DNA of 36,129 nucleotides. Origin: Desulfovibrionaceae bacterium (lineage in GTDB: Bacteria; Desulfobacterota; Desulfovibrionia; Desulfovibrionales; Desulfovibrionaceae). The notes beneath the pieces were generated by a model that saw nothing but the letters and a program-made list of their open reading frames with translations, was not told where the DNA came from and ran no database searches. Positions 4,217 to 21,846 of this stretch are shown piece after piece. Location of the stretch: contig JADFXV010000028.1 of assembly GCA_015233395.1 (NCBI GenBank), forward strand, positions 1 through 36,129. The letters run 5' to 3'. Numbering within the stretch: position 1 is the stretch's first letter; each line of letters opens with the position of its first letter. The position numbers were made by a program, and so were the translations under genes.

Positions 4217-4537
4217 ATGTGGAAAGTCGTTACGCTCAACGAAGTCGTTGACGCCGAGCTCGAAGCGCTGCCAAGCGATCTGCGCGCTCGCCTTCGACGT
4301 ATCGGTGAGTTGATAAAAAATAACGGCTTGGAACGCGTACACGAACCTCACGTCAAACATGTCCAGGGACCTATCTGGGAGATTCGTTTGCTTGGGAAGG
4401 ATGGTATCGCCCGAGCGCTTTACGTCACGGCGAGCGGGAAGCGGGTGGTGATCGTCCGTGCTTTCGTGAAGAAAACCCAGAAAACGTCCCGCGAAGAAAT
4501 CGCATTGGCCTTGAAAAGGGCGAAGGAAGTTCTATGA
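4217..4537 (+). CDS. higB: HigB-type toxin, phage Gp49-like family (RelE superfamily)
   Basis: 106 aa. The sequence fits the phage-derived Gp49-like HigB family, with HVQGPIWEIRLLGKDGIARALY in the middle (cited here by its key part WEIRL) and the family's C-terminal signature FVKKTQKTSREEIALALKRAK. Family members are ribosome-dependent mRNA interferases. The ATG lies only seven bases after the -10 box, with no ribosome-binding site. The stop overlaps the antitoxin start (ATGA). Base composition is visibly lower in GC than the flanking kinase and regulator genes, consistent with acquisition by transfer. Toxin-first order is typical of HigBA. Cellular targets cannot be read from the sequence. 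Confidence 0.88.
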   Translation: MWKVVTLNEVVDAELEALPSDLRARLRRIGELIKNNGLERVHEPHVKHVQGPIWEIRLLGKDGIARALYVTASGKRVVIVRAFVKKTQKTSREEIALALKRAKEVL

Positions 4538-4827
4538 AAGGCACATCTCTTGACGATCTGCATGAACGTTGGCTGAAAGACCCCGGCTACAAGCAGGCGT
4601 ATGACGATCTGGAAGAAGAATTCAGCATCGCGGCGGCCTTGATCGAGGCCCGCTCCAGGGCCGGCCTCTCTCAAGAGGAAGTTGCCCGCAGAATGCAGAC
4701 CAAGCAAACGGTCGTCGCCCGTCTCGAAAGCGGACGCGCCATGCCGTCCACGCGCACTCTGCAACGCTTCGCAATCGCCACGGGCACGAAGCTCAAAATC
4801 AGCTTTGACCCAAAACACGCCGCTTGA
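4534..4827 (+). CDS. higA: HigA-type antitoxin, XRE-family helix-turn-helix
   Basis: 97 aa. It overlaps the toxin stop by four bases and has its own ribosome-binding site (AAGGAAG) within the toxin's 3' end. An XRE/Cro helix-turn-helix occupies about residues 40-85 (GLSQEEVARRMQTKQTVVARLESG). HigA proteins neutralise HigB and repress their own operon; the palindrome over the promoter at 4188-4211 is the obvious operator. The N-terminal part (HERWLKDPGYKQAYDDLEEEF) is the usual toxin-contact region of this family. Confidence 0.88.
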   Translation: MKGTSLDDLHERWLKDPGYKQAYDDLEEEFSIAAALIEARSRAGLSQEEVARRMQTKQTVVARLESGRAMPSTRTLQRFAIATGTKLKISFDPKHAA

Positions 4828-12701: not shown

Positions 12702-12932
12702 ATGCACGCTGTCAAGATTCGCCGTATCGGCAATTCGCTCGGGGTGGTCCTGCCCAAAGAGATTCTGGCCAGGCTCGGGGCCGGCGAGGGGGCCAGCGTC
12801 TACCTGACCGATTCCCCGGACGGCGGCCTGCGCCTGACGCCGCTCAACGAAGATTTCGCCCGGCAGATGGAAGCGGCCGAGACCATCATGCGCCGCGACC
12901 GCGACGCCTTGCGGGAATTGGCCAAGCGGTGA
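12702..12932 (+). CDS. AbrB/MazE/SpoVT-type antitoxin
   Basis: 76 aa from the ATG at 12702, chosen because TGGAGG sits five bases upstream and the product then begins at the family's conserved start, MHAVKIRRIGNSLGVVLPKE, the swapped-hairpin AbrB DNA-binding fold. The C-terminal 30 residues (LNEDFARQMEAAETIMRRDRD) form the helical part that usually wraps the toxin. The stop overlaps the toxin start (GTGA), so translation is coupled. Such AbrB-type antitoxins are commonly paired with Doc toxins and repress their own promoter. Confidence 0.87.
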   Translation: MHAVKIRRIGNSLGVVLPKEILARLGAGEGASVYLTDSPDGGLRLTPLNEDFARQMEAAETIMRRDRDALRELAKR

Positions 12933-13324
12933 GCTTCGCCTGGCTCGGCCTGGAGGTGATCCTGGCCATTCACGAGGCCCAGATCGCCGAGCACGGCGGT
13001 GCGCTAGGCATCCGCGACGCAGGTCTCGTCGAAAGCGCCCTGGCCGCCCCGCGCGCGCTCGCCGCCTACGGAAACCACGACCTCTGCTACCTGGCCGCCG
13101 CCTACGGACACGCCCTGATTCACAACCACGGCTTCATCGACGGCAACAAACGCACCGCCTACGTGGCCACGCTTTTATTTCTGGAACTGGGCGGCGCTCG
13201 TCTCGCGGCGCCGCTCGCCGAACGGGTTCTCGTGTTCGAACGCCTCGGCGCGGGAGATATGACCCGGGAAGATTTCGCCGCCTGGCTGCGGCGGTGGAAA
13301 GAACCGTCCCGCCTCAGTGGATGA
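12929..13324 (+). CDS. doc: Doc (death-on-curing) toxin, Fic superfamily
   Basis: 131 aa from the GTG that overlaps the antitoxin stop; a longer frame exists upstream but runs through the antitoxin gene. The Doc/Fic catalytic motif is intact: HGFIDGNKRTA (about residues 71-81), matching HxFx(D/N)GNKR. Doc proteins phosphorylate elongation factor Tu and halt translation. The opening residues (LGLEVILAIHEAQIAEHGG) are also typical of the family. The gene ends convergently with fliL, with 11 bp of overlap, which suggests insertion right up to the neighbour. Confidence 0.88.
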   Translation: MSFAWLGLEVILAIHEAQIAEHGGALGIRDAGLVESALAAPRALAAYGNHDLCYLAAAYGHALIHNHGFIDGNKRTAYVATLLFLELGGARLAAPLAERVLVFERLGAGDMTREDFAAWLRRWKEPSRLSG

Positions 13325-19380: not shown

Positions 19381-19607
19381 CGTGCGCCCCTTTGCCGCGC
19401 CAGGCGCGGGATGTGAACCGGAGCGGAGAATTTCTCGATTTCACGCTCCCGCACGCCAGTAACAAATCGCGGCGAGGCGGTAAAGATTGAGGGCCGGCGG
19501 CTTATTTTTTCGCTGCGCCTGCCGATATGAATGGAAGAAAACTATCGAGCCGGGTACGCGCCGATTGCGCGCCGGGCGATGAGAACGGCCGAGGAACGCA
19601 TGCCAAA

Positions 19608-19651
19608 CCGCAAACGCAACGCCAGGCCCGCCCGGCCGCAAACGCAACGCC
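19608..19651. repeat. Two 16-bp direct repeats, 28-bp period, upstream of the glycosyltransferase gene
   Basis: CCGCAAACGCAACGCC occurs at 19608-19623 and again at 19636-19651. The 28-bp period is not a multiple of three, so the repeat is not kept as protein. They lie inside a 20-codon open frame (ATG 19600, TGA 19660) that has GAGG five bases upstream and ends four bases before the glycosyltransferase GTG. Could be an operator or a leader-peptide region. The gap 19381-19607 shows nothing else I can name. Confidence 0.6.
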
Positions 19652-19666
19652 CGCGAGCCTGACCCC

Positions 19667-20770
19667 GTGCGCGTCGTTCACTTCTCCAATAATTCGCTGG
19701 CGGGCGCGCCCATCCGCCTGTGCCGCGCCCTGACCGCGCACGCGGGCGTCGATGCGCGCCTGGTCGATCTCAAACGCTTCGGGCTCTACGGCCAGGACGT
19801 GGTCTTTAAGGAAACCCCGGAGCTGGCCCTGGAACTGGCGCGCACGGCGGACGTGATCCACCTGCACAATTTCCTGGACGCCGAGTCCACCGATTTCGCC
19901 CCCATCGATTTCGCGAGCCTGGCCAAGGCCGGGGCGCGTCTGCTGCGCCATTTCCACAGCACCCCGGGGCTGATCGCGCTGCGCCGGGGGATCAGCGTCG
20001 ATGCGCTGCTCGCCTCGCCCACCCCGACCGTGGTCATCGCCCAATATCCGGAGAGGCTTTTCCCGAAGGCCATGGTCGTGCCCAACCTGATCCCGGCCAG
20101 CGACCCCGCCTACCGGCCCAATCCCGGCTCGCCCCAATGGGACGTTTTTTTCGGCCCAAGCCGGCCCGGCGGCGCGTTTGAGGACCGCTGGAACACCAAG
20201 GGCGCGCCGGAAACCACGGCCATGCTCGCGCGCCTGGCGGCGAAAACCGGCGCCCGGATCAACGCCCGCGACGGGTCGAGCCTCGCGCCTCTGGCCCAAA
20301 TTCTCGCGGAAAAAAGCCGCTCGCGCATCGTCATTGACGACCTGGCCCACGGCTCCTACCATCTTTCCGGCCTGGAAGGCCTGTGCCTGGGCAAGCCGGT
20401 GCTCAATTTCCTGGACGAGCGCACGCTTTTTCTGCTGCGCGCCTTTTCCGGCCAAAGCGAGCATCCTTTTTGCAACGTACGCCTGGAGGAGGCCGAAGAC
20501 GTGCTCGCCTACCTCCTGGCCCATCCAGGCGAGGCCGAAGAGATCGGCGCGGCCTCGCGCGACTGGATCGACCGCTGCTGGTCCGAACCCCGGCTTGCGG
20601 GTTTTTACCGGGAGATGTACGCCATGCTGCTCGACGATCCGGGCCGCATCGTCAGACAGCCGGAACTGGCCCTTGACGGGCCGCGCCGTTTTTTCGCCGT
20701 CACGCTGCCCGAACTCGTCCACGGCGCGCGAAGCAGGCGCTTCAGACACAACGAAACGGAGACCATATGA
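19667..20770 (+). CDS. Glycosyltransferase-like protein (GT-B fold type)
   Basis: 367 aa from GTG at 19667; the ribosome-binding site is weak, and translation may be coupled to the small frame ending four bases upstream. The N-terminal half looks like a GT4-type Rossmann domain (VVHFSNNSLAGAPIRLCRAL, then ADVIHLHNFLD), and the C-terminal part has the sugar-nucleotide-side features SYHLSGLEGLCLGKPVLNF, followed by a helical tail. The exact sugar and acceptor are unknown. It overlaps the radical SAM gene by four bases (ATGA), so both products are probably made together. A role in modifying a surface glycan, flagellin or a peptide is inference. Confidence 0.7.
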   Translation: MRVVHFSNNSLAGAPIRLCRALTAHAGVDARLVDLKRFGLYGQDVVFKETPELALELARTADVIHLHNFLDAESTDFAPIDFASLAKAGARLLRHFHSTPGLIALRRGISVDALLASPTPTVVIAQYPERLFPKAMVVPNLIPASDPAYRPNPGSPQWDVFFGPSRPGGAFEDRWNTKGAPETTAMLARLAAKTGARINARDGSSLAPLAQILAEKSRSRIVIDDLAHGSYHLSGLEGLCLGKPVLNFLDERTLFLLRAFSGQSEHPFCNVRLEEAEDVLAYLLAHPGEAEEIGAASRDWIDRCWSEPRLAGFYREMYAMLLDDPGRIVRQPELALDGPRRFFAVTLPELVHGARSRRFRHNETETI

Positions 20771-21846
20771 AATACCTCGCCAACATCAAGACGATGAACG
20801 AACGCATGAACGATCTGTACGCCCAGGCCCAGACAGGCGAGGTCGTCTCGTTTCCGCAGAACGTCTCCATCGTCAGCACCTTCCGCTGCAACTACCGCTG
20901 CAAGGTCTGTTTCCAGACCGACTTCAACGGGGAGCTCAACTGGAAGGTGATGGACAACATCGAGCCCATCCTGCCCTTTGTCCAGGACCTGCATCCCTTC
21001 GGCGGCGAACCCTTCCTCTACAAGCGCATCGGGGACTTCTTCAACCTGGCCCACGAGTACGGCTGCCGGGTCAAGATCATCACCAACGCGAGCCTGATCG
21101 ACGCCGACATGGCCTGGAACCTGGTGGCCAAGAAAATCCACCGCCTGCTCGTGAGCATCGACGCCGGCGAGGCCGCGACCTACAAATACCTCCGGGGCGG
21201 CGACTACGACCAGCTCCTGCGCAATCTCGAAGCCATCGCCAAGGAAAAACGCCTGCAAAATTCGCTCGTCCCCCATCTGGAATTCAATTTCCTGGCGCTC
21301 AAAAGCAATATCGCCGAACTGCCGGGGCTGGTCGAGACCGCCGCCCGGCTCGGCGTCGAGACCATCAACGTCTTTTATCCCAAGATCCTTCGGGAAGAGC
21401 TCATCCCGGAATGCCTCTGGTTCTCCCAGAGCCTCTCCGACGACATGATGGTCGCGGCCATCGCCAGAGGCCGGGAACTGGGCGTCGCCGTCGTGCCGAC
21501 CGCGCTTTTCCGCGAGGACAACCAACCCGGCGGCGTCGTCTTCCGCAGCGCCCAGAAATGCACCCGCCCCTGGCGCAACCTGAACATCGACATCTTCGGC
21601 AACGCCACCCTGTGCTGCTTCGGCTCGCCCCTGATCGGCAACGTCCAGAGCCAGGATTTCGACGCCGTCTGGAACAGCGCCCTGGCCCAGAAGATCCGCG
21701 AAAGCGTGGGCACCGACAAGGAATTCGACTTCTGCCGCACCTGCGCGGTCAGGCCGTTTAGCCCCAAAAACATCGAATACCACATGCCCCCGCACATCCA
21801 CGGCAAGATCCCCGAAAACCTGCTCGCCGCCGCCCGGACTCGTTGA
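20767..21846 (+). CDS. Radical SAM/SPASM domain protein
   Basis: 359 aa. The radical SAM cluster motif is CNYRCKVC (Cys41, Cys45, Cys48), followed by the SAM-binding GGEP at 79-82. The C-terminal region has a SPASM-like set of Cys (265, 283, 284, 323, 326) that could hold auxiliary Fe-S clusters. SPASM enzymes modify peptides or proteins, or act on sugars. Here the gene is fused by overlap to a glycosyltransferase-like gene, with no clear peptide substrate nearby except perhaps the 20-codon frame at 19600-19662. The substrate is unknown; the family call is secure. Confidence 0.88.
   Translation: MKYLANIKTMNERMNDLYAQAQTGEVVSFPQNVSIVSTFRCNYRCKVCFQTDFNGELNWKVMDNIEPILPFVQDLHPFGGEPFLYKRIGDFFNLAHEYGCRVKIITNASLIDADMAWNLVAKKIHRLLVSIDAGEAATYKYLRGGDYDQLLRNLEAIAKEKRLQNSLVPHLEFNFLALKSNIAELPGLVETAARLGVETINVFYPKILREELIPECLWFSQSLSDDMMVAAIARGRELGVAVVPTALFREDNQPGGVVFRSAQKCTRPWRNLNIDIFGNATLCCFGSPLIGNVQSQDFDAVWNSALAQKIRESVGTDKEFDFCRTCAVRPFSPKNIEYHMPPHIHGKIPENLLAAARTR

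Follow-up and report, generated by a model that had tools for sequence, protein, structure and literature searches.

Within a 36,129-nucleotide stretch of the genome of a Desulfovibrionaceae bacterium (assembly GCA_015233395.1, contig JADFXV010000028.1, positions 1 to 36,129; hereafter the window), a glycosyltransferase (GT) gene and a radical S-adenosylmethionine (SAM) enzyme gene overlap, and on balance we think it somewhat probable that the two form a lineage-specific unit for a surface glycan. The GT gene lies on the forward strand at 19667-20770, has a GTG start and encodes 367 amino acids; the radical SAM gene follows on the same strand at 20767-21846, starts with ATG and encodes 359 amino acids, including a predicted twitch-type domain for a single auxiliary cluster. 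The overlap is an ATGA at 20767-20770, four bases common to the stop of the first gene and the start of the second, just as the first-pass annotation had described. Both genes score highly with a codon model trained on the window and, since relatives of the GT start at the same residue, its GTG start is sound. The proposal builds on this gene structure, on a confident model of the GT-B fold, on the linkage of the GT family to NeuB and cytidine monophosphate (CMP)-sugar genes, on the radical SAM and auxiliary motifs, and on the glycan-rich neighbourhoods of the radical SAM relatives; from these we infer one common pathway, a sugar substrate, the type of reaction and translational coupling.

The window GT matched no family at E up to 1 in Pfam or NCBIfam. 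A structure model built from the window protein aligned with 22 relatives (predicted local distance difference test (pLDDT) 92.5, predicted template modelling score (pTM) 0.90) contains the two Rossmann-like domains of the GT-B fold. A VIA-align search with this model returned GT-B glycosyltransferases throughout its list, headed by BshA (Z 22.2; 296 residues, 3.4 Å) and including HepE (20.7), MshA (20.0), PimA (19.8) and PglA (19.1), and Foldseek agreed on the fold. PglA is also found by sequence with the GT profile (5.8e-5), and E237, which is invariant, falls on the glutamate in the LEAM stretch of PglA. Positions 229 and 237 correspond to the two glutamates of the GT4 motif E-X7-E; an invariant glycine occupies position 229, where the motif begins with glutamate, and we therefore call the enzyme GT4-like and not a standard GT4. 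Compared with GT4-type retaining enzymes (BshA, MshA, PimA, PglA and HepE), the window GT has the same two-domain fold over residues 1-325 and keeps the second glutamate of the E-X7-E region, whereas identity is only about 9-17%, a Pfam match is lacking and a long C-terminal helix (338-366) extends beyond the matched range. On this modelling, the first gene encodes a GT-B fold enzyme closest to GT4 glycosyltransferases, and the initial label 'glycosyltransferase-like' holds despite the absence of family matches.

Relatives of the GT are found at E up to 1e-60 in 31 of 288 genomes of the family, this one included, and always as a single copy. We collected 42 loci, 20 of them by place and 22 by a scan of named genomes, the latter including Fundidesulfovibrio, Solidesulfovibrio, Nitratidesulfovibrio, Thiodictyon, Desulfamplus and Paucibacter as well as metagenome-assembled genomes labelled Bacteroidales, Hydrogenedentota and Armatimonadetes. 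Of the 31 loci with closer relatives (36-59% identity), 28 are distinct, as L164, L167 and L178 duplicate L064, L066 and L071. Counting genes on the same strand and no more than 5 kb from the GT, NeuB, the sialic-type sugar synthase, is present in 13 of these 28 and a CMP-sugar synthetase without NeuB in a further 4; the remaining 11, several of them on short contigs, have neither. NeuB also occurs in 6/11 loci of a more distant group at about 30% identity. It is often preceded by a winged-helix gene, one half of which is NeuD-like. The GT family is thus tied to nonulosonate-type sugar loci (17/28), in Desulfovibrionaceae and in others, whereas the window GT itself is not beside NeuB. The NeuB of this genome, 62% identical to its L064 counterpart, stands with the winged-helix gene on another contig (G000 C99:2838-4552) without the GT, and the simplest reading is that the GT has moved away from its NeuB partner.

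Two further arrangements of the GT family were seen. In Solidesulfovibrio and close relatives (L063:7395-10043, L165, L168 and L171) the GT forms the N-terminal part of a protein of about 880 amino acids, after which comes a CMP-sugar synthetase; in L063 the rest of the large protein has methyltransferase and GT2 domains. In several genera (L068, L070, L072 and L080) the GT relative lies by chemotaxis-type (CheD-/Hpt-like) and pst/phoU genes and not in a NeuB locus.

The radical SAM protein matches PF04055 (5.9e-13) and PF13186 (1.5e-10) and no further Pfam domain; all of its NCBIfam matches fall far under their cut-offs, the best being TIGR04317 with 96.5 bits against 380. Among 26 aligned relatives, the CX3CX2C cysteines (C41, C45 and C48) and four auxiliary cysteines (C265, C283, C323 and C326) are invariant in every row, and no other cysteine is, including after C326. 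In full SPASM enzymes additional cysteines serve a second auxiliary cluster, a pattern that this group does not have. Therefore, the first-pass annotation of a radical SAM/SPASM enzyme stands in its first half, and twitch is the better term for the second. A search of the profile against solved structures placed BtrN first (8e-20). The alignment takes in the core as well as the twitch part and sets all four auxiliary cysteines opposite cysteines of BtrN; further matches included SkfB, BlsE (cytosylglucuronate decarboxylase, 4e-16) and MoaA among others. The auxiliary cluster of BtrN is described as held by four cysteines and as the probable electron acceptor when the enzyme oxidises an aminocyclitol by two electrons (PMC9012708). 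The window enzyme has the same CX3CX2C and the same four auxiliary cysteines ending in CxxC as this butirosin biosynthesis dehydrogenase; it differs in being about 100 residues longer and in having no aminocyclitol pathway seen with it. As judged from these motifs, the product of the second gene is a radical SAM enzyme of the twitch type, with a single predicted auxiliary cluster. Matches at E up to 1e-35 occur in 24 of the 288 family genomes, and at 1e-45 in 21 of 348 genomes of the class, all within Desulfovibrionaceae.

To the neighbourhoods of the radical SAM relatives we applied a choice of glycan genes that was our own and unblinded. By this choice, 12 of 22 loci carry a GT or other glycan gene within three genes of the relative, and in the other 10 none was seen close by; near-duplicates (L091, L150, L152, L154 and L161), a locus whose gene was missed by the gene caller (L160) and the weaker L092-L098 were left out. 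The neighbours are GT2 in L147, L151 and L159, GT2 with a sub-threshold MptE-like match in L158, PF13524 GTs in L146 and L148, GT61 in L144, WcbI and GT1 in L088, an MptE-like protein and a glycerophosphotransferase in L145, a sugar nucleotidyltransferase in L090 and L162 (similar loci of one genus), and an MBOAT on the opposite strand in L085. Among the families listed in a Pfam search of 119 neighbouring proteins were 4 GT2, 3 PF13524, 3 PF01973 and 2 GT1. The control was 85 of 88 proteins from farther out in the same loci, three short ones having been dropped; here no GT family, one NeuB and one nucleotidyltransferase were among the 25 families listed. As these tables hold only the 25 families listed, the enrichment of GTs near the radical SAM relatives is a trend and not a test.

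Outside the family, weak relatives (23-27%) occur on plasmids. In Methylobacterium their neighbours are GT87 and GT2 genes; in Miltoncostaea a GT2 gene is a few kb off, and in Roseibium heptose genes are close. In Azospirillum, by contrast, the surroundings consist of further radical SAM genes and carbamoyltransferase genes. Viral homologues were not found with the single protein as query; a closer alignment gave 13 distant ones (22-33%). There was also one weak phage record. We also considered a viperin (pVip) defence gene and rejected it, given that the PADLOC pVip match covers only residues 38-157, the radical SAM core, and that the NCBIfam viperin model scores 51.9 bits against a cut-off of 180. 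One locus (L083:5374-8830, G023:C67) has a tandem array of three relatives of the radical SAM gene, of which the first may be broken.

If the two genes do form a glycan unit, the GT would extend a growing surface glycan, or a lipid-linked sugar, by one sugar. The CX3CX2C cluster of its partner would reduce SAM to give a 5'-deoxyadenosyl radical, which would take a hydrogen atom from a carbon of the substrate, most likely a hydroxyl-bearing sugar carbon. The four-cysteine auxiliary cluster could then accept an electron, leaving the sugar oxidised or, after re-addition of hydrogen, epimerised. The ATGA overlap may couple translation so that both enzymes are made together. We put forward a wider version of this only tentatively and hold it to be rather doubtful: that BtrN-like twitch enzymes oxidise or epimerise sugars in the lipid-linked or nonulosonate surface glycans of anaerobes, and are here joined in an operon to the GT that installs or extends the substrate.

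Several observations weigh against a glycan unit. At the thresholds used (GT E up to 1e-60, radical SAM E up to 1e-35), 9 of the 288 family genomes hold both genes, which adjoin only here and lie on different contigs in the other 8. A tblastn search of the 42 GT loci found a radical SAM gene only in L071, a distant one (29% over 133 residues) that lies 10 kb from the GT. In the profile search, the score of BlsE is equalled by that of SkfB, a twitch enzyme that modifies a peptide, and a single-sequence structure model of the radical SAM protein reached a pLDDT of only 37.7. To these are added the incomplete E-X7-E motif of the GT, a NeuB that is unlinked from the GT in this genome, the 10 radical SAM loci that lack a glycan gene close by, our unblinded choice of such genes and Pfam tables that give 25 families each. 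The comparison across Desulfovibrionaceae thus gave a pair found together in 1/9 genomes with both genes. In L071 (G037; the same contig as in Desulfovibrio sp. A2) the radical SAM gene lies downstream on the same strand, after NeuB, the GT, a NeuA-like gene and a GT2 gene. The pairing in the window is therefore recent or local, with one independent cluster of the same gene kinds in existence, and it seems peculiar to this lineage.

The same data bear on the alternative that survives best, namely two independent enzymes brought together by rearrangement, in which the GT would still serve the NeuB pathway on the other contig and the radical SAM enzyme would have an unrelated task in the modification of a protein, cofactor or metabolite. 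The restriction of the pair to a single genome of the family, at the thresholds used, fits this explanation, as do NeuB and its upstream winged-helix gene on C99 without the GT, and a window neighbourhood that is a mosaic. Moreover, the radical SAM gene has two paralogues in this genome that adjoin genes for small, secreted, barrel-like proteins. The overlap of the two genes, on the other hand, implies coupled expression, and relatives of both are found in glycan loci, so that we regard rearrangement of unrelated genes as possible, if unlikely. The paralogues themselves lie at L086:9089-10986 (G000:C76) and L089:1397-3312 (G000:C94), and each is next to a related beta-barrel-like protein of about 190 amino acids; another role, or a duplicated block, is possible for them.

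A link to motility had been raised at first pass from the genes nearby. Upstream of the pair are a PPDK-like gene, a cyclic nucleotide (cNMP)-binding gene, MotA and MotB, with a response regulator on the opposite strand, and downstream is HtrA; MotA and MotB end 1.4 kb and 0.7 kb upstream of the GT. We examined the MotB-HtrA neighbourhood in 59 genomes, of which 39, including this one, have MotB at E up to 1e-40. Of the other 38, 36 have an HtrA match at 1e-80, and in none of these 36 are the two neighbours: they are on one contig but more than 400 kb apart in 5 and on different contigs in 31, where contig breaks limit the test. On this synteny we rejected the motility link, and the same result counts against flagellin or another motility protein as the acceptor that the pair glycosylates. 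What remains of a flagellar lead is weak and comes from the 3/119 proteins near radical SAM relatives that match PF01973, the MptE-like domain, which occurs in Maf flagellin glycosyltransferases; two of these neighbours were located, one passing the Pfam cut-off and one failing it. Neither a flagellin nor a Maf gene was seen in the window, and lipopolysaccharide (LPS) or capsule fits the NeuB-linked loci equally well. We therefore consider a flagellin target improbable. Elsewhere in the window, at 4217-4827 and 12702-13324, are two small gene pairs that by eye resemble toxin-antitoxin systems, one RelE/HigB-like with a partner and the other AbrB-like with a Doc-like gene.

Ahead of the pair lies a frame of 20 Arg/Pro-rich codons (MPNRKRNARPARPQTQRPRA, then a stop) at 19600-19662 on the forward strand, preceded by a GAGGA motif like a ribosome-binding site (RBS) and ending four bases before the GTG, as had been correctly reported. 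Read from an upstream ATG at 19531 it extends to 43 codons. A large share of it consists of an exact 16-base direct repeat (CCGCAAACGCAACGCC, 19608-19623 and 19636-19651, forward strand), of which the genome has one more exact copy on contig C66. For comparison we took 398 genes with at least 120 free bases upstream. An ATG frame of at least 20 codons with an RBS-like motif ends equally near the start in 8 of these, or in 24 if any start codon is allowed; without the RBS condition, comparable frames precede 54 (ATG) and 99 (any start codon) genes. The arrangement is thus uncommon (about 2-6%), yet unremarkable for GC-rich DNA. All six frames are open across its 60 bases, and its mean codon log-odds of -0.118 lies below the 5th percentile of real 20-codon coding stretches (0.06), with the 95th percentile of wrong frames at -0.26. 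In a comparison with the DNA ahead of the GT gene in 41 relatives (up to 200 bases each), no conserved counterpart was found: 4 gave p <=0.05 against 60 shuffles, where about 2 are expected, and the strongest (L065) was unrelated sequence containing a run of Ns. On its poor codon score, six-frame openness and lack of a counterpart we rejected the frame as a gene, and it is probably not one; a small gene or peptide substrate here was not supported. Because the GT gene overlaps the preceding gene in some relatives (L063 and L165), it is conceivable that the frame is at most a leader that helps ribosomes to reach the GTG at 19667.

Modification of a ribosomally synthesised and post-translationally modified peptide (RiPP)-like substrate encoded by this frame is very improbable, for although the solved relatives include SkfB and further radical SAM enzymes that act on peptides, and a short frame does precede the genes, the frame has the properties just given, no conserved precursor peptide gene corresponding to it was found in the DNA upstream of the GT relatives, the radical SAM protein has PF04055 and PF13186 as its only Pfam domains, and its twitch part aligns well with BtrN and weakly with SkfB.

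Taken together, the first-pass proposal of a modification pathway for a peptide, protein or glycan can be narrowed: the genes around members of both families speak for a glycan or a surface target, and a conserved pathway pair is not what we found. That annotation had named a known sugar or LPS pathway with an unconserved small frame as the result that would count against it, and this is largely the outcome, with the GT family in nonulosonate-type loci.

The action of radical SAM enzymes on antibiotic sugars and on peptides has been studied in detail. In the open-licence literature that we found, their role in bacterial surface glycans is inferred from gene neighbourhoods only. On a 36-kb plasmid of Brachyspira hyodysenteriae, radical SAM genes adjoin a group 1-like glycosyltransferase, an epimerase and rfbC, and a role in lipooligosaccharide synthesis or glycosylation is proposed for them by inference (PMC4267127). 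The radical SAM genes of this plasmid, which the tandem copies of L083 recall, are tblastn matches to that of the window (23% over 83-91%), whereas the block described has more genes and other GTs than the window pair; the window GT itself had no match in the plasmid collection. A capsule cluster of Campylobacter jejuni is also listed with a radical SAM gene close to a glycosyltransferase (PMC8743553). Radical SAM and GT neighbours are therefore already in print, the Brachyspira plasmid being the nearest case among those found, and the arrangement is of a known, uncharacterised kind. With ordinary enzyme types and an unconserved pair, the surprise is moderate. The GT family, which lacks a Pfam model despite its wide linkage to NeuB, would be worth annotating. 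Moreover, if the radical SAM group acts on sugars, anaerobes could oxidise or invert unactivated sugar carbons at the cell surface, and the window pair would offer a simple system of two genes in which to test this.
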